Shown piece after piece: positions 31,608 to 61,468 of a DNA stretch of 64,000 nucleotides. The stretch comes from Porphyridium purpureum (lineage: Eukaryota > Rhodophyta > Bangiophyceae > Porphyridiales > Porphyridiaceae). Below the pieces are notes generated by a model. It made no database searches. It was not told the origin of the DNA and worked only from the letters and a program-made list of their open reading frames with translations. Within the stretch, counting starts at the first letter, position 1; each line of letters begins with the position of its first letter. Location of the stretch: assembly GCA_008690995.1 (NCBI GenBank), contig VRMN01000004.1:868001-932000 (forward strand), written 5' to 3'. Both the position numbers and the translations under genes were made by a program.

Positions 31608-33308
31608 TCAAGCAAGCTTAAGGGCCGAAGCTTGTGCGAGAATGGCCGTAAATGCCGCCGGACGTTCGCGCTCGAGCAGCATTCCAAGGAGCGACCAGCC
31701 CAGACGAAAAGCTACGCGCTCGACAAGCAGCAAAGCATGCGCTAGGCCAGGGAGAAGTACATCCGTGTAGCAGGAGAACACAACCTGGTTGACAACGATA
31801 CTGCCGTGGCGCGTGTGCGGGTTGTACAAACCTTTCACGAAGCCCGACGGCTGTTCCACCGTCTCAACGCGGAGCCAGCCGTGCGATACGTGTGCCAGCA
31901 AATCCCCATGGCGAACTACGCCGGCTCTTCGCAAACCTTGCTGGGTGGGCACCAGATGCCCAGTGGAAACCGTGATCGCGATTCCACCCTCCAGCTGCAA
32001 GCGAACGAAGCGCTCAGCTGGTACGGCCTGCGGACTCTTGTGCCCCCAAAACACAACCTCGCTGAATTCATTGGCCGATACACGGACACGTGCACCGATC
32101 TGAAGCTCGTCCATGCGCACAAGGCGGCCGTCTTCAAGCTCAACAACGGCATCCGCTGGAAAGCAGGTAGCCTCCGGTTCCGGTATTGGCGTAGGAGAAG
32201 ATGTCGGTGCCGCAGTCGATGTAGGCGTTGAAGAAGTCTGCGACTCCATCCCGTGACCACAGTGGTTGGCCTCGCAGATACGACCCCGATCCTCTAGCCC
32301 TTGCGATGCGAGAAATGCACGCATATAAGTCACTTGCATGTTCTGCGTATTAATAATGTTCCAGAGCAGGTCCACAAATTCTTCGTCAAGTTGTCCAGGC
32401 GCGGCCAAATTGAGAAGCGACTTGGCCATGTTGACTGCATTGAGATGATGCGGAATCATTTGGTCCACAAAAGTAACTCGCTCGTCAGCGCTAATATCTA
32501 CCTGCATTTCCTCGTGCATTGCGCAGTCGAGCGCATTCATGCACTCTCCGAAGACACTGCCGTTCAAATTGCAGAGGAACGTGCGCGTGCCGCATGTGTC
32601 TTGGAAAGGCGCCACGCGGAACGTTCCACACGTCTGATCGAAGGAATCGAGCTCGGCATAATTGTATCCCAAAGGCGGAAGGTCTGCATCTGGCTGTCGC
32701 AGCACATTGTCGTCTGCAATCTTGACGCGAAGACTCATGAAGTCGTGGATGTGACAGAATATGAAGATATCCTCCACAGCGGTTTGCGTCACGTTCAAGC
32801 AGACTTCAAAGTTGCCCCGCTCGGCCCACATCATACGTGGCAGCATGAACGCTGGCTCGTAAACATCAAGCCCAAAGTCCAACACATCCTCCTCGCTGCC
32901 CAGAAACTGGCCGTTCAGAAAATATAAAGGTCGCTGACACGAACTCGTCTCCACACAACTTTCGTCATATGGGTTCACTTCCGGCTCAAGCTCTGGATTC
33001 TCCTTGAGGGCGCCATCAGGAAGGTACCCAAAGCCCAGCGGGTGCATCCAGTTTGAGATATCGTATTGGCGGAAGCAATACATGGTGTTGGCATTCACAA
33101 GCAACGTCGGCTGTACACCTTCGCAGCCGTCGACTGTGAAGTAGCCCGTTTCGCTTGCAAAGGGATTGACCTTGAAGTCAAAGACGCACGTGCCATTCTG
33201 CTCAAAGCAGCTGGCGCGGCACAGTCCGTCTTCATCCGTCGACGCCGCGCTTGCGAGCACGGCCACGTTGAGAATCAGCACAAGCGCAGCAACAATACTT
33301 GCTCCCAT
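31608..33308 (-). CDS. Secreted cupredoxin-like + DUF305 + Hedgehog-type Hint fusion protein
   Basis: A 566-residue protein. Order: signal peptide (1-22); a Cys-containing cupredoxin-like region (about 60-200) with candidate copper ligands His89 (NWMHP) and Cys185, His188, Met191 in FCHIHDFM; a DUF305 region (about 265-340) with DQMIPHHLNAVNMAK and NTQNMQVTYMRAFL; a Thr/Ser/Pro linker (358-381); then a Hint domain from Cys382 (CFPADAVVELEDG) with STGHL and PHTRHGSIVVNQVVFSCYT, and a C-terminal LAHALLLVERV block shared with the other Hint protein. DUF305 includes the cyanobacterial copper-binding protein CopM. Hint cleavage before Cys382 would release the putative copper-handling part outside the cell. 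Where the canonical Thr of T-x-x-H stands, this protein has Ser. Confidence 0.87.
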   Translation of the reverse strand: MGASIVAALVLILNVAVLASAASTDEDGLCRASCFEQNGTCVFDFKVNPFASETGYFTVDGCEGVQPTLLVNANTMYCFRQYDISNWMHPLGFGYLPDGALKENPELEPEVNPYDESCVETSSCQRPLYFLNGQFLGSEEDVLDFGLDVYEPAFMLPRMMWAERGNFEVCLNVTQTAVEDIFIFCHIHDFMSLRVKIADDNVLRQPDADLPPLGYNYAELDSFDQTCGTFRVAPFQDTCGTRTFLCNLNGSVFGECMNALDCAMHEEMQVDISADERVTFVDQMIPHHLNAVNMAKSLLNLAAPGQLDEEFVDLLWNIINTQNMQVTYMRAFLASQGLEDRGRICEANHCGHGMESQTSSTPTSTAAPTSSPTPIPEPEATCFPADAVVELEDGRLVRMDELQIGARVRVSANEFSEVVFWGHKSPQAVPAERFVRLQLEGGIAITVSTGHLVPTQQGLRRAGVVRHGDLLAHVSHGWLRVETVEQPSGFVKGLYNPHTRHGSIVVNQVVFSCYTDVLLPGLAHALLLVERVAFRLGWSLLGMLLERERPAAFTAILAQASALKLA

Positions 33309-48235: not shown

Positions 48236-48531
48236 TGTTACCAATGCTGTGCCTTTTTACTCTCTCTCTCTCTCTGCCTTTTCTGTCTCCGAGCAAGACC
48301 TGACCGGCTAGTCCGGGCAGGCGCGCCGCCTTTTTATACCCTTACTTCCGCCAGGGACAGCAAGGTGCCAAGAGAAATGACAATGCAAATCATTGGCATT
48401 TCTGTGCAAGTCTAGAAGGTTTTGGAACCTCTAGAAGCTTCTAGAAACGGTTAAACGGTCTACCGGTTTAACGGCTTACCGGTTTCGGATTAACTGAACC
48501 GTTCTAGGTCACTGGGGTCGAACGGATAACA
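48236..48531 (-). repeat. Solo Gypsy LTR (copy C)
   Basis: 296 bp, TGTTA...TAACA. It is the same family and orientation as the LTRs at 54022-54322 and 59194-59474. It carries the heat-shock-element-like array (48411-48448) and a TATA box (minus strand, GGGTATAAAAAGG near 48331-48343). It has lost its internal part and joins the duplicated 1,994-bp segment on its right. Its left flank is the broken copia. No matching 5-bp target duplication is seen. Confidence 0.88.
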
Positions 48532-50525
48532 CTTAATATGACGAAGGCTGTGCTTCAACGGTGCGGACGATACTTTGTGCGGTGCATGACACGACGATAG
48601 CATCACTTCTAGTCAGACGACACAGCAAAGCAGAAATTGTGCATTACAAGCATCGCGAATTCTGCAAACTTTCTAAGAGCTTGCACTCTACTAAGTTTGC
48701 ATCGAAGGAGGTTATATTTTTGTTCTTGATCGCTATTGCGAATTTTCTCGTCAATGTGGAATACGGAGAGCAGTTGGCGACTTCATTTGAAGTTGTCCGA
48801 GGATTTGCGCTACTATCGCGCTAATTCTCTCAACTGACAACCAATACACGCGCTCCTGAAAAGGCACGTCGGAACAAGCAAGCAGTCAAAGGTGTTGCTG
48901 GTAACCCGTCTGAGAAACCAACAGCTATAGGAGCTGGGTACACGCTCAATCAGGATGCACCACTTCTGAAATACGGCTCACTGCTTACACCGTAAGTCAG
49001 CCTTGTGCGGCTCATTCCGTTCTATTCGCGCATGCATTCGCCTATATAAGGGTGCCCCGTGACAGAAATCTTCTTTTCTTCGCTCTTCTAGTCCTCTTCC
49101 CCCTTAAGGGGAGTCACAGTAAAAAGAAACATATCGAGTTGGCAAAGAACAAGCGTCTGGATTTTACGATATGGAAACAGCCAAAAAAGGCACACTGAGG
49201 TCTGGACGTGTCGAATTGAATGTTGATATTTTGAATCGCTAGCTAGGAGATACCGCTCGTGCTTGCGTCAAGGAATCCGCACTTGTGCGAGGCATGTCAC
49301 AAACTTGCCTCATCAAATCTCTTGACGGTGCGAGATCTACCTTTGTGAATCCCAATACCAGGAAACTTCGATTCGCTACCATTGCAGGCCTCCGCGTCGA
49401 CTCTCACGCCAATTCTTCCACCATCGAAAGTGACTATAAAAATGATCATGACGAAATGATCAGGTAGATCAGGAAGAGGAGATGAATTCCAACATGGTTG
49501 AAAGTAAAATCAAATTCAACGGCCGCGAGAAAATTGAATCCAACGAAAGTGACACTTATTCCCTGAGAGATCACAAAAAACTAAGAAATGAGAACCATGG
49601 AGATTGAGTGATTGAAGCTGGCCAGAGCCTCATGGCTTAACTTGATTGCGACTCGGTTCGCAATCTGGATCTTCAAAATCTGAGTCTGAGCCTGAGCACA
49701 CTTCTCCACATTGCGAGAAAAAGGAAGCAAGGAGAGAACTGCCGGAAACGAAAATATCGCAAAAACGACAACGGTGACGTATGCATCTGTATTTTCGCAG
49801 AGTCCGTAGGAATGTAGTTGTGCTGGTAGATCTCGTCTTCTTGGAAGTTTGCGCTTCTGCTCTCATAGACTAATTGAGATGATAATCGCAATATAAATGC
49901 GATCTGATATTGCCAAATCACACAGCATCCATCGCGAACTTCCCTTTTTATGCCACTCAGCAATTAATTCTGGGATTGAACCAAGTATCACACAGAAAGC
50001 ACTTCATGCAGAACTCGATGAGTAGCGGAATGGCCCGTATGATGAAGTCTCACGTCTCAATTCCTGCGAGATCAAATAATATGGGATGACACATGGTGTA
50101 GAAAATGAATTTTGAAACTCAACAAGTGCTGAAACTTCAAGCTGGGCCGGTGTCGAAAAGTAACCGTGGCAAAGACAAACAGTGGCTGTTGAGAGATGCT
50201 TTCGCTCCACGGATAGCCGCATTGCGCCTCGTCTGCATGACCCCACCAATTCATAAGTACTTAATTTACAAAATTGACCTACGAGAAACTTAATTGAAAT
50301 GTGGCCGCAAGGACCGAGACATGTATGTGCGACCGCGTCCTAAAACATCAGGTTGAAATACTGTGCAAACTGCATGCAAAAACTCACAGTCACATTGGCA
50401 CAGGAAGACACTGGCTCTTTGCCGGCGAAGAAGATTTGGTAGAAATGGGATTGCAGCGACTGTCGCGAGCGACCTGATGCAGGTCTCAGTACAGCGAGTA
50501 CGCAGAGGTACAGTCCCAAAGTGTA
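48532..50525. repeat. Duplicated 1,994-bp segment, copy D1
   Basis: Equal in length and about 99.2% identical (about 15 differences counted by eye) to 59475-61468. It holds decayed element DNA, not a working gene: a TATA-box promoter-like stretch at about 49040-49130 (CTATATAAGGG) and short copia-like fragments (for example 49285-49467). The segment begins exactly at the Gypsy LTR edge in both copies, so the duplication postdates LTR insertion. Confidence 0.93.
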
Positions 50526-50775
50526 AACAGTCCATAACCGTGTTTTTAGGGTTACTCGCCCGTTAATACTCCCGTTAATACTCTCCACTAATGCGGAGAT
50601 GTAATTCGTTAATACTAGAATCCTTAACCGTTAAGGATTTTAGGGTTCCTCGTAACCATTTGGTCTGACTGTACCTCCAGGGACAACAAGTTTTGTTTTC
50701 TACGCCAAAGAATTTATTTTTTTGAATTTACTAATATTTAATATTTTTCAACCTCCTGTACCCCGTCTACATGGA
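50526..50775. other. AT-rich spacer with nested short repeats downstream of the RING-like ORF
   Basis: It contains TTTTAGGGTT(A/C)CTCG twice (50544-50558 and 50638-50652), CGTTAATACT three times (50561, 50573, 50607) and the 17-nt palindrome TCCTTAACCGTTAAGGA at 50621-50637. AT-rich DNA with TTTGAATTTACTAATATTTAA follows. It lies just beyond the stop codon of the 1,070-codon ORF and may be its 3' UTR/terminator or the end of a mobile unit. Confidence 0.6.
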
Positions 50776-53700
50776 TCATTCTGTGCTGTGAGCGTGGTCA
50801 CGGAATTGACTCGGTGACCACGTCAATATTGACGGCACCTGGTAAGTATTAAGCGGCCCCGTCACCGAGCCGTGGTTCGCATATGCGATGGCCTTCTTGG
50901 CAAGGTACCACGCGATCTTCATGTCGTCCGCCAGCTCTGGGTATGTTCTCATATGAGCAGCCACGCCTTGTCCTGTCCTGCACTCGTCGCATACGCAGAG
51001 CTCTCGCAGTGGCGGCGGTATTAACCCGGTGCCGCCTTCCTGCAGCGAGACCAAATGATCGCTTAGTGCCTGCCGCATGCGGAGCTTGGTTTCCGACACG
51101 AAGTAATCGCACCAGCAGCGAGCCCGCTGTCGCTCATATGAAAGGATATCCTCCATCATGCGCTGACCCGGATAATGCCGGATATACCCAGGTCGCCACG
51201 TACTGTTCATATGTTGGCACCAGGGCAAGTTCGGCGGGTGAGGCCAATCTGGGCTCGAGCCAATTGCCTGTACGACCGGTCGGATATCCCAGTACATGTT
51301 GTACTCGTTGACGATATCGTCCCACACAGGAAATCGGCGCGTGTCCAGAACGTCAAACGCAAGCTTGCGGGATATTCCATACGGCCTGCGTCGATTTCCA
51401 GGGAAGTACTCCAGCAACTCCTGGATATCCTCCACTTGCAAAGCCATCTGGCGAGCCCGGGCCCGGCGCATTTCGACGAGCATTATGCGCACAATATTGT
51501 GGCATATGCTGTGCGCGAAGTGGCGCCGCGCCTGGCCTGCTACCAGTTCGACGAGCGGTGGGTTCGTGGATATCCGCCACCTGCCCGGTCTTCTGGGTTC
51601 GGCGATGCAGCCGGCTAAGGCAGCAAAATCTGTGACGTGCCATGTTAAAAGACATCTCTCCATATGGTCGACGAAAGCGTCCGAGAAGCCTTCCGTACAG
51701 ATTGCGCCGGCAAAAAGGAAGGGCGCGAATGCGTAATTTTGTTCGCATATGCGGCAGACGCCAACGGCCTTCCTGCACAATTCGCACATGCTATAATTGC
51801 GCATGAACCTGTCATCCACGTGAAAGTTCGACAGTTCTATGCTGTACATGTTCGCCACCTTAAAGGCATATGTCATGCGCAGGCAGCTAGTGCATGTCGG
51901 GTGCAGGGTCGTGCACTCGTAGATGAACTGGTCTGTCACCGGAAATTGACAGATCAAGCAGTCTTGGATATCCACGTGTGCGGACGCGGGAAGTGCACGC
52001 ACAGCTGCTGATATCGGACTTCGCACGATGTCCACATCGCTCCAACTTTGGCTGGCCGCTGGCAATCGCATATGCCCATAAGTACCGCCTGCGAGGCTGG
52101 ACGTGCGGTACGTTTGCGGGGCAAAAGGCTCCTCAACACGGGTGCCATGTGGCGTGCGCGGCTCGGATGGGCGTGGTAGCATCTCCGCCGCACGTTCAAG
52201 GCCCCTCTGCAGCTGCCAGCCATCCACCCACAATCGCCTGAGCATGGCGACCCAGACACTATATGGCGCGGACCCCCCATACTCTATTGATCGCACATTA
52301 GATGTGCACTGGTGTCCGCGGTACATATGTCTTCGGGTCACGTTGCCAGATAACCATTGCACCCACACGCTGCTGCTCCCCCGATCCCAGGCAAAGGCAG
52401 TCTCTTGCGCCTTCCAATACTGGATTGCTGCCGTGTCGAGCTCGATGGATGCTGCGTGCGAGGCTGCATCAATATTGAGGTCTTCAGGAAGGCCAAAGTT
52501 GATCCTGCTACCTCCGTGCTCCATATGGAAGCTGCCAAACACCTTGGCAATGGCTAAGTCCGTGTCCCTCGGTGTGGCATGCAGTTCGGGCAGGTCGTCC
52601 CACAGGTAGTCATGCGTCACATGTGCGAATATTCGATTGTGCGCCTCTACCGTGTGGTCCCATAGCTCAATGCCCCATTCCAGGATGTTGCCCATGCCGA
52701 CATCGAAGCGTGGTGCGAGTAATTCTGGGACGTGCGTTCCATCTGGATTTATCGCGTCCCGGAACGCATACAATTGCGTCCTCGCAATCGAAGGCCAAGC
52801 ATACAGCTGAGCGCTCCGCAGCCGTGCTACACATATGTCGACGGCGTGCCGCTCGGAGTAGCGTGGGACGGTATAAGTCTGCCCATCTGCAGAAATCTGC
52901 TGGGTCGGGACATTTTCCATCCTGAAGGCTTCGCGCAGCCGGCGCCCATGATACTCTGTATGGTGTGGCGGCCAGCGAAACACCCTTTGCGGCTGTTCAT
53001 CCATCTCGGTGGGTCCATATGGGAAGACCGACCCCGAGTAGTCAGCGGATACGACACGGCTCCGGAGCTCTTGGACCAAGTTTCGCATATGCGCAAGAGC
53101 AGCATCTCTGCCAAACCATATGGTAGCATACGTGCTGATATCGAGGAGCGTTGTCGCAAAGTCCATCATCACGCGCACGGCGCGGATGCGTTCTAAGCGC
53201 GCCAAGCATCCCTTCGGGAACAATTCGTCACCGTCTCTTGCCCTGCGCGGACGTGTCGGCATCGTCTCCACATGGAGCCTTGGGCCTTCGTGGACGAAGA
53301 TGACGGCCGGGTATCCTGTTGTGTTGCACGGGCATGCAATATTGCGCGGCAATTGAGGAAGCCGATAAGCGTTGCGAGTAAGCCTCGAGATGCGCTCCAC
53401 CGCATCATCGTGGCCGCGAACCACCAACGCAGCATCATATGATGGCGCACCGTGCGCAGCAGGCATAAGCGTGCGCAACTGGTAAAAATGAGCATATGCA
53501 CTGTTCCAGCCGTCACTTCGTGTCGGCTTTGGGCTGAGCTCATATGGACCAACGGTTGTCAGGCGGCGAGGCCATTCGCACCTCTGCTTCAGCAGCCACG
53601 CCTCCAAGTCTAGACTCTCTTGAATGCGCGCACGTCTCGGATATCCGAGTGCACCTGCGTCAGTGCGCCTGCGCTTATGTCCATATGACAGCTGGCGCGG

Positions 53701-53988
53701 AGCACTTTGGTCGGCAATTGCGCCCGTGAATTCGTCATATGACCACGCAAAGAGGCGTTCCGTGCGCTGCGCCGCCAGAAACATGCGATACAGTGCCACC
53801 TCCCACTCTCCCATATGAGCTGAATAGTGGTGCTGCCCATATGGGGTTTCTGCGATCCAGTGGGCCACCGTGACGCCACCACGTAGACACTTGAGAGCTC
53901 CAACAATATTGCTGAAGTACATCAAAAACGCATGGCTCACTGCGATGCCCAGGTGCGCCTCGCGGGCTCCGATATCGGCGTGAGACAT
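50776..53988 (-). CDS. Orphan 1,070-residue protein with a RING-like finger; gene saturated with N-ATAT-N' palindromes
   Basis: The ATG at 53988 lies 34 bp from the Gypsy LTR; the open frame continues into the LTR without a better start. I recognise no full-length family. At about residues 677-738 the spacing C-x2-C-x11-C-x3-H-x2-C-x2-C-x32-C-x2-C fits a C3HC4 RING finger (DCLICQF; CTTLHPTCTSC; CELC), followed by another CRIC pair. A second cluster, CVCDEC, lies near the C-terminus. The rest is rich in Trp, Tyr, His and Arg with no signal peptide or TM segment. RING proteins are usually ubiquitin ligases; that role is inference. The DNA holds 38 CATATG, GATATC or AATATT sites in all codon phases. 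It could belong to an undescribed mobile element, to a virus-derived gene or to a lineage-specific family. Confidence 0.7.
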   Translation of the reverse strand: MSHADIGAREAHLGIAVSHAFLMYFSNIVGALKCLRGGVTVAHWIAETPYGQHHYSAHMGEWEVALYRMFLAAQRTERLFAWSYDEFTGAIADQSAPRQLSYGHKRRRTDAGALGYPRRARIQESLDLEAWLLKQRCEWPRRLTTVGPYELSPKPTRSDGWNSAYAHFYQLRTLMPAAHGAPSYDAALVVRGHDDAVERISRLTRNAYRLPQLPRNIACPCNTTGYPAVIFVHEGPRLHVETMPTRPRRARDGDELFPKGCLARLERIRAVRVMMDFATTLLDISTYATIWFGRDAALAHMRNLVQELRSRVVSADYSGSVFPYGPTEMDEQPQRVFRWPPHHTEYHGRRLREAFRMENVPTQQISADGQTYTVPRYSERHAVDICVARLRSAQLYAWPSIARTQLYAFRDAINPDGTHVPELLAPRFDVGMGNILEWGIELWDHTVEAHNRIFAHVTHDYLWDDLPELHATPRDTDLAIAKVFGSFHMEHGGSRINFGLPEDLNIDAASHAASIELDTAAIQYWKAQETAFAWDRGSSSVWVQWLSGNVTRRHMYRGHQCTSNVRSIEYGGSAPYSVWVAMLRRLWVDGWQLQRGLERAAEMLPRPSEPRTPHGTRVEEPFAPQTYRTSSLAGGTYGHMRLPAASQSWSDVDIVRSPISAAVRALPASAHVDIQDCLICQFPVTDQFIYECTTLHPTCTSCLRMTYAFKVANMYSIELSNFHVDDRFMRNYSMCELCRKAVGVCRICEQNYAFAPFLFAGAICTEGFSDAFVDHMERCLLTWHVTDFAALAGCIAEPRRPGRWRISTNPPLVELVAGQARRHFAHSICHNIVRIMLVEMRRARARQMALQVEDIQELLEYFPGNRRRPYGISRKLAFDVLDTRRFPVWDDIVNEYNMYWDIRPVVQAIGSSPDWPHPPNLPWCQHMNSTWRPGYIRHYPGQRMMEDILSYERQRARCWCDYFVSETKLRMRQALSDHLVSLQEGGTGLIPPPLRELCVCDECRTGQGVAAHMRTYPELADDMKIAWYLAKKAIAYANHGSVTGPLNTYQVPSILTWSPSQFRDHAHSTE

Positions 53989-54021
53989 CGGGTCCGACGC
54001 GGCCGTCTCGTCACGGCGCAA

Positions 54022-54322
54022 TGTTACCAATGCTGTGCCTTTTTTTACTCTCTGCGTCTTCTTCTTACCTCTTCTCTCTCCGAGCAAGACCTGACCGGCT
54101 AGTCCGGGCAGGCGCGTCGCCTTTTTATACCCTTACTTCCGCCAGGGACAGCAAGGCGCCAAGAGAAATGACAATGCAAACCATTGGCATTTCTGCGCGC
54201 GTCTAGAAGGTTCTGGAACCTCTAGAAGCTTCTAGAAACGGTTAAACGGTCTACCGGTTTAACGGCTTACCGGTTTCGGATTAACCGAACCGTTCTAGGT
54301 GACTGGGGTCGAACGGATAACA
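54022..54322 (-). repeat. 3' LTR of the Gypsy element (copy A)
   Basis: 301 bp. On the minus strand: U3 with a GAA/TTC array at 54202-54239, then a TATA box GGGTATAAAAAGG near 54120-54132, then a purine-rich R/U5. It lies 34 bp upstream of the 1,070-codon ORF and points toward it. Confidence 0.93.
54202..54239 (-). promoter_or_regulatory. Heat-shock-element-like array in the Gypsy LTR U3
   Basis: The sequence TCTAGAAGGTTCTGGAACC followed by TCTAGAAGCTTCTAGAAAC shows alternating GAA and TTC units at 2-nt spacing, with at least two perfect runs of GAA-nn-TTC-nn-GAA. That is the canonical heat-shock-factor binding pattern. It sits about 75-110 bp upstream of the TATA box in element orientation. 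The same array is in the solo LTR (48411-48448) and, in shorter form, in the other LTR (about 59366-59391). Confidence 0.75.
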
Positions 54323-58646: not shown

Positions 58647-59193
58647 TCAACGACGACAACGACACAAACAGCGAGTCTCCGCTGCTCACACTCTCGAACA
58701 GCTGCGCGCAACACGAACGGGCTTCGATTGCCCTCACGAACACGAACCGACACACGAAGCAGTCCTCTCACTCACACACACGCACAGCAATCCGCTCACG
58801 CACACACAACAAAGCACACAGCAATCCTCCTCTGTTGCGCTGGATGGGGAGCGGCCCGGGCCTTTGCACTGGGGCGGGGATTATAGATGCGATCTTGTAT
58901 GGAGGTGTTCGGCGCCTACCTTCGCAAAGGTGGTCGTGCGACACTAAGATGAATCCTAGTGAAGGCTGACCGTTACGGCTCTTGCCTACTAATACGTGCT
59001 AAGGCAGAGAGCGAGTCCGCCGTCAAGGCCTAGGCCTATCGTACAGCCAAGACTGAGACCCGCTTCCACCCGTCGCACCCTCCGGATCGACTTACTCGAA
59101 CCCCCTTACCCGCAGACTCTCCCACCCAGGCAACCCCAGAGAAACTCTAAGAGAACCTTAGAGCAACCCCAGGTAACCAGCGATGATACCAAA
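58647..59193 (-). other. Gypsy 5' leader
   Basis: Untranslated leader between the 5' LTR and gag, with C/A-rich stretches on the plus strand (for example 58766-58812) and the primer-binding site at its LTR edge. No gene. Confidence 0.7.
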
Positions 59194-59474
59194 TGTTACC
59201 AATGCTGTGCCTTTTTTTACTCTCTGCGTCTTCTTCTTACCTCTTCTCTCTCCGAGCAAGACCTGACCGGCTAGTCCGGGCAGGCGCGTCGCCTTTTTAT
59301 ACCCTTACTTCCGCCAGGGACAGCAAGGTGCCAAGAGAGATGACAATGCAAATCATTGGCATTTCTGGAACCTCTAGAAGCTTCTAGAAACGGTTAAACG
59401 GTCTACCGGTTTAACGGCTTACCGGTTTCGGATTAACTGAACCGTTCTAGGTCACTGGGGTCGAACGGATAACA
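59194..59474 (-). repeat. 5' LTR of the Gypsy element (copy B)
   Basis: 281 bp, same ends as copies A and C, with the TATA box and a shorter GAA/TTC array. Its right edge joins the D2 segment exactly as copy C joins D1. Confidence 0.93.
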
Positions 59475-61468
59475 CTTAATATGACGAAGGCTGTGCTTCA
59501 ACGGTGCGGACGATACTTTGTGCGGTGCATGACACGACGATAGCATCACTTCTAGTCAGACGACACAGCAAAGCAGAAATTGTGCATTACAAGCATCGCG
59601 AATTCTGCAAACTTTCTAAGAGCTTGCACTCTACTAAGTTTGCATCGAAGGAGGTTATATTTTTGTTCTTGATCGCTATTGCGAATTTTCTCGTCAATGT
59701 GGAATACGGAGAGCAGTTGGCGACTTCATTTGAACTTGTCCGAGGAATTGCGCTACTATCGCGCTAATTCTCTCAACTGACAACCAATACACGCGCTCCT
59801 GAAAAGGCACGTCGGAACAAGCAAGCAATCAAAGGTGTTGCTGGTAACCCGTCTGAGAAACCAACAGCTATAGGAGCTGGGTACACGCTCAATCAGGATG
59901 CACCACTTCTGAAATACGGCTCACTGCTTACACCGTAAGTCAGCCTTGTGCGGCTCATTCCGTTCTATTCGCGCATGTATTCGCCTATATAAGGGTGCCC
60001 CGTGACAGAAATCTTCTTTTCTTCGCTCTTCTAGTCCTCTTCCCCCTTAAGGGGAGTCACAGTAAAAAGAAACATATCGAGTTGGCAAAGAACAAGCGTC
60101 TGGATTTTACGATATGGATACAGCTAAAAAAGGCACTTTGAGGTCTGGACGTGTCGAATTGTATGTTGATATTTTGAATCGCTAGCTAGGAGATACCGCT
60201 CGTGCTTGCGTCAAGGAATCCGCACTTGTGCGAGGCATGTCACAAACTTGCCTCATCAAATCTCTTGACGGTGCGAGATCTACCTTTGTGAATCCCAATA
60301 CCAGGAAACTTCGATTCGCTACCATTGCAGGCCTCCGCGTCGACTCTCACGCCAATTCTTCCACCATCGAAAGTGACTATAAAAATGATCATGACGAAAT
60401 GATCAGGTAGATCAGGAAGAGGAGATGAATTCCAACATGGTTGAAAGTAAAATCAAATTCAACGGCCGCGAGAAAATTGAATCCAACGAAAGTGACACTT
60501 ATTCCCTGAGAGATCACAAAAAACTAAGAAATGAGAACCATGGAGATTGAGTGATTGAAGCTGGCCAGAGCCTCATGGCTTAACTTGATTGCGACTCGGT
60601 TCGCAATCTGGATCTTCAAAATCTGAGTCTGAGCCTGAGCACACTTCTCCACATTGCGAGAAAAAGGAAGCAAGGAGAGAACTGCCGGAAACGAAAATAT
60701 CGCAAAAACGACAACGGTGACGTATGCATCTGTATTTTCGCAGAGTCCGTAGGAATGTAGTTGTGCTGGTAGATCTCGTCTTCTTGGAAGTTTGCGCTTC
60801 TGCTCTCATAGACTAATTGAGATGATAATCGCAATATAAATGCGATCTGATATTGCCAAATCACACAGCATCCATCGCGAACTTCCCTTTTTATGCCACT
60901 CAGCAATTAATTCTGGGATTGAACCAAGTATCACACAGAAAGCACTTCATGCAGAACTCGATGAGTAGCGGAATGGCCCGTATGATGAAGTCTCACGTCT
61001 CAATTCCTGCGAGATCAAATAATATGGGATGACACATGGTGTAGAAAATGAATTTTGAAACTCAACAAGTGCTGAAACTTCAAGGTGGGCCGGTGTCGAA
61101 AAGTAACCGTGGCAAAGACAAACAGTGGCTGTTGAGAGATGCTTTCGCTCCACGGATAGCCGCATTGCGCCTCGTCTGCATGACCCCACCAATTCATAAG
61201 TACCTAATTTACAAAATTGACCTACGAGAAACTTAATTGAAATGTGGCCGCAAGGACCGAGACATGTATGTGCGACCGCGTCCTAAAACATCAGGTTGAA
61301 ATACTGTGCAAACTGCATGCAAAAACTCACAGTCACATTGGCACAGGAAGACACTGGCTCTTTGCCGGCGAAGAAGATTTGGTAGAAATGGGATTGCAGC
61401 GACTGTCGCGAGCGACCTGATGCAGGTCTCAGTATAACGAGTACGCACAGGTACAGTCCCTAAGTGTA
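59475..61468. repeat. Duplicated 1,994-bp segment, copy D2
   Basis: About 99.2% identical to 48532-50525, with the same length and no insertions or deletions seen. To its right, after an intervening promoter-like stretch, copia reverse transcriptase and RNase H remnants continue. D2 is therefore probably the original context: the left part of an old copia into which the Gypsy LTR inserted. Confidence 0.93.

Follow-up and report, generated by a model that had tools for sequence, protein, structure and literature searches.

Why should one open reading frame (ORF) of a red alga be filled with short palindromes that share the same four central bases? The ORF lies at 50821-53978 of a 64,000-nucleotide stretch of the Porphyridium purpureum genome (assembly GCA_008690995.1, contig VRMN01000004.1, positions 868,001 to 932,000; hereafter the window), and an earlier note, made from the letters alone, had singled it out. 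Its counts of 22 CATATG, 10 GATATC, and 6 AATATT proved exact, and the roughly three ATATs that it described as non-palindromic are exactly three (GATATA, GATATT, and TATATG), against 38 of 41 with complementary flanks. The remaining ~60.8 kb of the window holds 38 such sites, or ~2 per 3.2 kb, in line with the note's guess of about two by chance; altogether the window has 174 ATATs, 76 of them palindromic. We compared the ORF with the genome (22.16 Mb in 46 contigs, a single genome only; C1, C3, C8, C11, and so on are its contigs, C11 carrying the window). The ORF is gene D, the last gene of a four-gene, ~10.95-kb DNA transposon (family F1), and an F1 site has ATAT as its invariant core, framed by as many as three base pairs whose letters vary freely while the two halves stay complementary. 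Both the transposon and the family-specific nature of the core are visible only from the whole genome, beyond the window that the note had before it.

A fixed core with matching flanks

Codon shuffling was one of the tests by which the earlier note proposed that its claim could be refuted. Across 1000 shuffles that left the protein and the codon counts unchanged, the sites were not reproduced: ATAT palindromes with arms of at least three bases numbered 38 in the ORF versus 9.6 ± 2.5 in the shuffles (maximum 20), those with arms of at least four 31 versus 4.0 (maximum 11), and those with arms of at least five 19 versus 1.7 (maximum 6). The same shuffles were applied to the 15 remaining palindromic 4-mer centres, and none approached this excess; AGCT was mildly enriched (10 versus 4.5 at arm 3, 5 versus 1.3 at arm 4), without leaving the range of the shuffles. 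Of the 6-bp ATAT palindromes that the protein permits, 38/56 are realised, compared with 0-24% for seven other cores tried. Complementarity falls outward from the core, from 38/41 at position 3 to 34/41 at position 4, 23/41 at position 5, and 12/41, the background, at position 6. Ordinary genes do not match this density. The gypsy ORF, with which the note had contrasted it, holds 2 sites, and the other window ORFs of ~280 amino acids (aa) or more have at most 3 each. No non-F1 ORF in the window or in the stretches examined on C8, C1, C12, C13, and C20 was flagged for ATAT, the largest count being 6 (in gene A of a sister family, F2). The shuffles and the ordinary genes thus both fail to refute the view that the sites are not a product of chance.

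The full element follows the same rule. Among 118 F1 ATATs, moving outward from the core, 99, 88, 65, 36, and 29 have a complementary pair, 36 being the background. To quantify the matching of halves, we drew half-sites randomly from their pool and counted matching pairs. This null was rejected for F1, in which 252/354 pairs match versus 101.7 ± 8.4 and perfect 10-mers number 46 versus 3.0, and for both copies of a sister family, F3, with its own core GTAC (80/117 versus 34.5 ± 5.0 on C1; 45/69 versus 20.1 ± 3.7 on C3). Four controls stayed within about 2 standard deviations: ATAT (83 versus 70.4 ± 7.2) and GTAC (141 versus 133.4 ± 10.1) in window positions 1-48000, ATAT in the sister family F6 (36 versus 27.4 ± 4.3), and GTAC in F1 (22 versus 24.2 ± 4.1). 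The matched halves are the hardest fact to explain, because a dimer that reads its halves separately would accept mixed sites.

Sites with arms of at least four in the full element occupy all three codon phases, and the note was right that they are not a peptide repeat. They are concentrated in genes, with 115 ATATs in 9378 coding bp and 5 in 1576 non-coding bp, and are spaced more evenly than random (coefficient of variation 0.72 versus a random 1-99% range of 0.81-1.21). A 3-bp phase is present, as coding DNA would give, and 10-11-bp (helical) phasing of F1 sites is absent.

The F1 transposon and its sister families

Gene D occurs in five near-full copies (on C11, which is the window copy, on C8, on C13 with stops, on C12, and on C1) and as a C20 relic with 54% identity across residues 398-618. 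The fullest F1 copy, C8:799964-810917 (10,954 bp), has 13-bp inverted ends, CAGTCCATAACCG..CGGTTATGGACTG, with CA..TG termini and GA on either flank; this 2-bp target-site duplication (TSD) is known from the one copy, and a 2-bp repeat could be chance. Subterminal TTAATAC repeats were seen by eye. Self-insertion into an ATAT target was considered and rejected, since the TSD of this copy is GA. The C8 frames encode A (1131 aa, transposase-like), B (346 aa), C (555 aa, opposite strand), and D (1194 aa). Gene A contains MDMPM D520, C542-x2-C545, H800-x3-H804, and E824, which are invariant in an alignment of four families and, judged from sequence, presumably include the catalytic residues. As in the CMCT transposons discussed below, where the spacing is C(2)C and H(3-4)H, these cysteine and histidine pairs of F1 lie between the second D and the last E, and the ends are CA..TG with a TSD. 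The likeness is one of motifs and ends; gene A gave no Pfam match above cut-off and no protein-database match. Gene B has a PWWP domain (Pfam, E 1e-6), which is the only named homologue found among B, C, and D; for gene D, no relative was found in Pfam, PDB, viral contigs, or a protein database, the last searched with words of each half in turn and 7999 candidates scored per half. Pfam found no methyltransferase domain in F1 proteins.

In the C8 copy, arm-3 ATAT sites exceed the codon shuffles in A (34 versus 9.1), C (17 versus 3.2), and D (40 versus 9.7); the 6 in gene B fall short of significance there. That the enrichment spans the whole window ORF follows from the truncation: only the 3' end of the element lies in the window, and the longer element is site-dense throughout its coding regions. 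Across the whole genome, CATATG pairs occur at 24 places against 8 for the reversed control, F1 copies accounting for 8 of the 24, and GATATC-CATATG pairs on both strands number 47 versus 3 in the control, many in F1 and another repeat. One 17-base GATATC..CATATG string recurs across C6, C7, C21, C25, C29, C33, C40, C41, and C43. A cluster of sites at C8:777k turned out to be an (AT)n microsatellite.

A query with gene A gave 59 genome matches, further, diverged families among them. We compared six gene-A families, F1 and five sisters, of which F2, F4, F5, and F6 are represented by one copy each. An iterated motif that is specific to the family and different in a sister was seen in four of the six. 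F3 shares the site grammar of F1, with the core GTAC in place of ATAT. In the C1 copy (L032), 39 GTAC sites have complementary flank pairs in 26, 28, 26, and then 11 cases, and sites with arms of at least five number 18 versus 1.3 in codon shuffles (maximum 7 of 1000); the second copy, on C3, shows the same grammar. A trace of gene C lies beside this copy (C3:202483-203256, 28% identity), the only accessory gene with such a trace. No core grammar was evident in two degenerate sequences, a relic on C30 and, close to F3 on C3, the C-like pseudogene. Genome-wide, CGTACG-GGTACC pairs fell below the reversed control (72 versus 210) and are uninformative. Separately, a repeated element with CGTACG/GGTACC pairs occurs at C11:669-672k, C22:115-117k, C33:149-151k, and C43:155-157k, and upstream of F3 gene A, at L032 4001-4500, 16 GTACs crowd into 500 bp of what is presumably the promoter, many as ATGTAC; their first flank pair is complementary in only 4/16.

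The other two families with a motif use words rather than free flanks. F6 (C13:694-702k) has 100 ATCCGs across 7.7 kb, counting both strands, at 30-42 per 3 kb versus ~6, and ATTCG too (together ATYCG). The word is asymmetric, with a weak surrounding consensus and no dyad covariation. Genome-wide, ATCCGA pairs on both strands number 110 versus 13 in the control; of the matches listed, at least 18 fall in F6 copies, and many lie elsewhere. F4 (C19) carries GGANTCC 16 times in 2.5 kb, GGAATCC accounting for 10 versus 0.3. The first flank pair of its GANTC is complementary in 18/27 and the next two are near background, so GGANTCC is a fixed word, not a core with free flanks. Pairs of GGANTCC occur 43 times in the genome, 9 of them in three F4 copies (control 5). 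A copia-like element (L037, C14:75001-77500), so called from a gag knuckle, protease, and pre-integrase motifs read by eye, has 15 copies of the same word in 2.5 kb. Beside F2, an ORF adjoining gene A has a PWWP match just under the cut-off. An AGAGCG word near F2 was dropped, as it sits in two ORFs beyond F2, one of them RNB/Dis3-like exonuclease.

In the window, the 3' third of F1 occupies 50528-54021 on the reverse strand, 99.4% identical to the C8 copy and with the same 3' terminus. Its terminal inverted repeat CAGTCCATAACCG at 50528-50540 corresponds to 799964-799976, where the C8 copy has its left end. The 5' part is missing, and the copy joins a gypsy long terminal repeat (LTR) at 54022. 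The 5'-truncated gene D (50776-53988, reverse strand) has the first in-window ATG of its frame at 53988; the mechanical ORF extends to 54087, into the LTR. All five long dyads that the note had listed are present. The longest, 14 bp, are centred on AATATT at 50825-50830 (dyad 50821-50834) and GATATC at 53640-53645 (53636-53649). Dyads of 12 bp surround CATATG at 50880-50885 and 53436-53441 (the latter 53433-53444), GATATC at 51313-51318 (51310-51321), and AATATT at 51493-51498 (51490-51501). Those of 10 bp have CATATG at 50950-50955, 51746-51751, 52522-52527, 53086-53091, 53117-53122, 53736-53741, and 53838-53843, GATATC at 51145-51150, 51967-51972, and 53971-53976, and AATATT at 52471-52476, 52628-52633, and 53338-53343. 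The 8-bp dyads comprise CATATG at 51135-51140, 51503-51508, 51661-51666, 52069-52074, 52324-52329, 52832-52837, 53016-53021, and 53493-53498, GATATC at 51283-51288, 51424-51429, and 51569-51574, and AATATT at 53905-53910. CATATG at 51208-51213, 51867-51872, 53541-53546, 53682-53687, and 53812-53817 and GATATC at 52010-52015 and 53137-53142 stop at 6 bp. The non-palindromic ATATs are GATATA (51181-51186), GATATT (51371-51376), in which the next two flank pairs are complementary, and TATATG (52260-52265), which is CATATG in the C1 and C12 copies.

Around this copy, 2.3-kb direct repeats, 98% identical, lie at 48236-50525 and 59194-61468. The F1 end at 50528 abuts the first, and the second continues unbroken, resembling an empty site. 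The gypsy LTR is found at 54022-54322 and also at 48236-48531 and 59192-59474; it has a heat-shock-element-like array (TTCTAGAA/GGTTCTGGAACC, by eye) and a TATA box, and its copy at 54022-54322 sits just upstream of the truncated gene D in the same orientation. Farther away, an ORF at 31608-33308 has a Hint module after a DUF305 stretch.

What the sites may be for

Chance, codon usage, or a peptide repeat has virtually no probability left as an explanation, being refuted by the codon shuffles, the half-site null, and the use of three codon phases. The earlier note had proposed selection on DNA or on RNA, and of these the DNA part is favoured over the RNA part, since G.U mismatches in the flanks of the sense strand are about as frequent as A.C (23 versus 22 in F1; 9 versus 11 and 3 versus 3 in two F3 copies). 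An RNA-level signal, such as mRNA hairpins or self-dimerising sites, would suit sites that lie mostly in coding regions, but these mismatch counts and the lack of an Rfam match at the gathering threshold within the window make it highly improbable. We consider adenine methylation at ApT or nucleosome placement, both raised by the note, to be quite improbable. ATAT does offer two ApT steps, and N6-methyladenine is found at ApT in several unicellular eukaryotes (PMC12695648); however, such methylation does not call for mutually complementary flanks, the F3 core GTAC has no ApT, and the absent 10-11-bp phasing leaves nucleosome placement unsupported.

A different kind of explanation is that the sites are written rather than read: a core-specific enzyme (methyltransferase, nickase, or endonuclease), followed by repair or copying, would palindromise the flanks as a mutational by-product, as proposed for the cyanobacterial HIP. 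Copying one half onto the other predicts just what is seen, matching halves with free letters, and amino acids appear to have been altered too. Alternate HIP palindromes accompany matching methyltransferases, and a mismatch-repair model has been put forward (PMC4390886). Many differences between F1 copies are an intact versus a broken site, and new palindromisation in some copies may be among them. The scarcity of sites in non-coding F1 DNA (5 versus 19.3 expected, p=1e-4), the even spacing, the lack of dyad grammar in F6, and the lack of a Pfam methyltransferase domain in F1 proteins speak against it, and we judge it unlikely. Alternatively, an element protein might read the sites as single-strand or cruciform hairpins, for example while the element transposes or its DNA is packed, much as folded attC sites are read by integron integrases; a fixed 4-base core with letter-free pairs is the grammar of a hairpin, the core being the loop and three flank pairs the stem. 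In the window ORF, 19 three-bp stems have ATAT for a loop, and the runner-up among 4-base loop words has 2. Conversely, the cores ATAT and GTAC are self-complementary, which a loop does not need, and 3-bp stems are weak; this explanation we regard as unlikely. The attC sites themselves are not conserved in sequence, and their recognition is presumed to rest on structure (PMC2727003).

We tentatively suggest, at not far short of an even chance, that the sites are a family-specific tag read by an element-encoded protein, akin to the VANC anti-silencing system without being a member of it. This self-tag is favoured by analogy with the VANC motifs of VANDAL transposons and with TnpA of Spm. An element-encoded protein would bind the sites along the element body, and the bound protein would recognise, mark, or protect its own copies, most likely from silencing; everything from binding onward we infer from the analogy. 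Candidate readers are B, in which the PWWP chromatin-reader domain suggests a chromatin role, C, given its trace beside F3, and D, found in F1 and one relic only. The matching halves could possibly be read via a transient hairpin or cruciform, or arise by a copying process. In broader form, we would have here a superfamily whose families write an identity code through their coding sequence, kept despite its cost in codon choice and even in amino acids (cores ATAT and GTAC, words GGANTCC and ATYCG). The family core would sit in letter-free, self-complementary flanks, be switched between sisters, and be read or maintained by an element protein via half-site complementarity. We hold this to be possible, somewhat short of an even chance.

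Selection on duplex DNA is pointed to by the even spacing together with moulded amino acids and better-kept pairs in diverged F3. Synonymously possible arm-5 ATAT sites number 27, 18, and 28 per 1000 codons in F1 A, C, and D versus 3-8 in eight other proteins, and possible arm-5 GTAC sites 34 in F3 A versus 4-18 in ten others. Between F3 copies that are 77% identical, complementary pairs at GTAC were kept in 56/70 versus 85/186 at ten control palindromes (p=6e-7), and pairs changed on both sides were still complementary in 4/7 versus 4/28 (p=0.03). In the C20 relic of F1 (76% identical DNA), one 10-bp palindrome, at 52471-52476, is whole; that at 52628-52633 retains AATATT only and loses the next pair, and the core at 52522-52527 is one base different.

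Several observations weigh against a tag read by an element protein. Ordinary recognition of DNA by a protein can hardly explain half-sites that match although their letters are free, and ordinary dimer binding does not account for why the halves must match. The scarcity of sites in non-coding DNA is the opposite of VANC motifs, which are non-coding arrays. Among recent F1 copies (96-99.9% identical DNA), site columns vary no less than others (37/810 versus 245/5891 elsewhere, p=0.58), so selection would act only in the active F1 lineage, and inserted copies would drift. The counts of possible sites are partly circular, as they include the realised ones, and the F3 copies on C1 and C3 yield non-independent sites. 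F4 amounts to a single 2.5-kb stretch whose codon-shuffle z of up to 6.3 is not far above the z of up to 5 reached by top-scoring words in ordinary genes, and F2 and F5 showed no clear motif in their one copy each. Moreover, short-word arrays far above background occur at C13:707-709k (L027; CGAAAA/AAAACT/CCCGAA) and C20:203k (L025; AAGTAC/CAGAAG), so word iteration alone is not unique to these transposons.

Should the self-tag hold, it would join the few known cases of a transposon telling its own DNA from that of its host or rivals (VANC and TnpA), and sister families with different, countable codes inside their genes would let the co-evolution of reader protein and site be tracked. The complementarity rule fits no recognition mode known to us and could reveal a new way to read or write DNA.

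Comparison with known systems

One close likeness is to VANDAL/VANC (MULE transposons of Arabidopsis). As in F1, F3, F4, and F6, a short motif is iterated many times in one family and replaced by another in a sister family. VANC motifs differ between VANDAL families and are dense in their own, and those of VANC6 also occur in the unrelated AT9TSD1 (PMC5735166), which is paralleled by the high density of the F4 word in an unrelated, copia-like element. VANC reduces methylation within the bodies of transposon genes, and Spm-encoded TnpA activates Spm in correlation with demethylation (PMC10398659). VANC motifs are, however, mainly non-coding tandem repeats in one orientation, whereas F1 sites tile coding regions, a difference that adds to the case against the self-tag. 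The sites of F1 and F3 are also palindromic with free complementary flanks, and the host and the transposase type differ. A VANC-like protein was not identified among B, C, and D, where PWWP in B is the named homologue.

TnpA sites are subterminal; F1 sites, by contrast, cover gene bodies. F1 nevertheless resembles En/Spm (CACTA) and CMCT in the C(2)C and H(3)H of gene A, the CA..TG ends, and the 2-bp TSD; CMCT transposons (EnSpm, Plavaka, Transib, and kin) share a C(2)C/H(3)H signature, CA..TG ends, and a TSD of 2-5 bp (PMC12730594). HIP1 of cyanobacteria is likewise a dense palindrome that some lineages have swapped for another (PMC4390886). Its 8-mer is fixed and common across bacterial genomes, whereas the flanks in F1 and F3 are free and dense sites were seen only in single eukaryotic transposon families. 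Nor do F1 sites form a fixed genome-wide palindrome paired with a methyltransferase, as HIP does: their flanks are free, they are dense only in F1 among the sampled DNA, and CATATG pairs elsewhere are sparse.

Integron attC sites are single in each cassette, form long imperfect hairpins, and are served by a tyrosine recombinase, unlike the sites of F1. In both, complementarity outweighs letters (PMC2727003). The literature searched, with subscription papers outside it and the VANDAL papers aside, reports no such sites in transposons. What appears to be new is thus the site grammar, a family core with letter-free, matching flanks in coding DNA, and the role that we propose for it has known analogues in the systems compared here.

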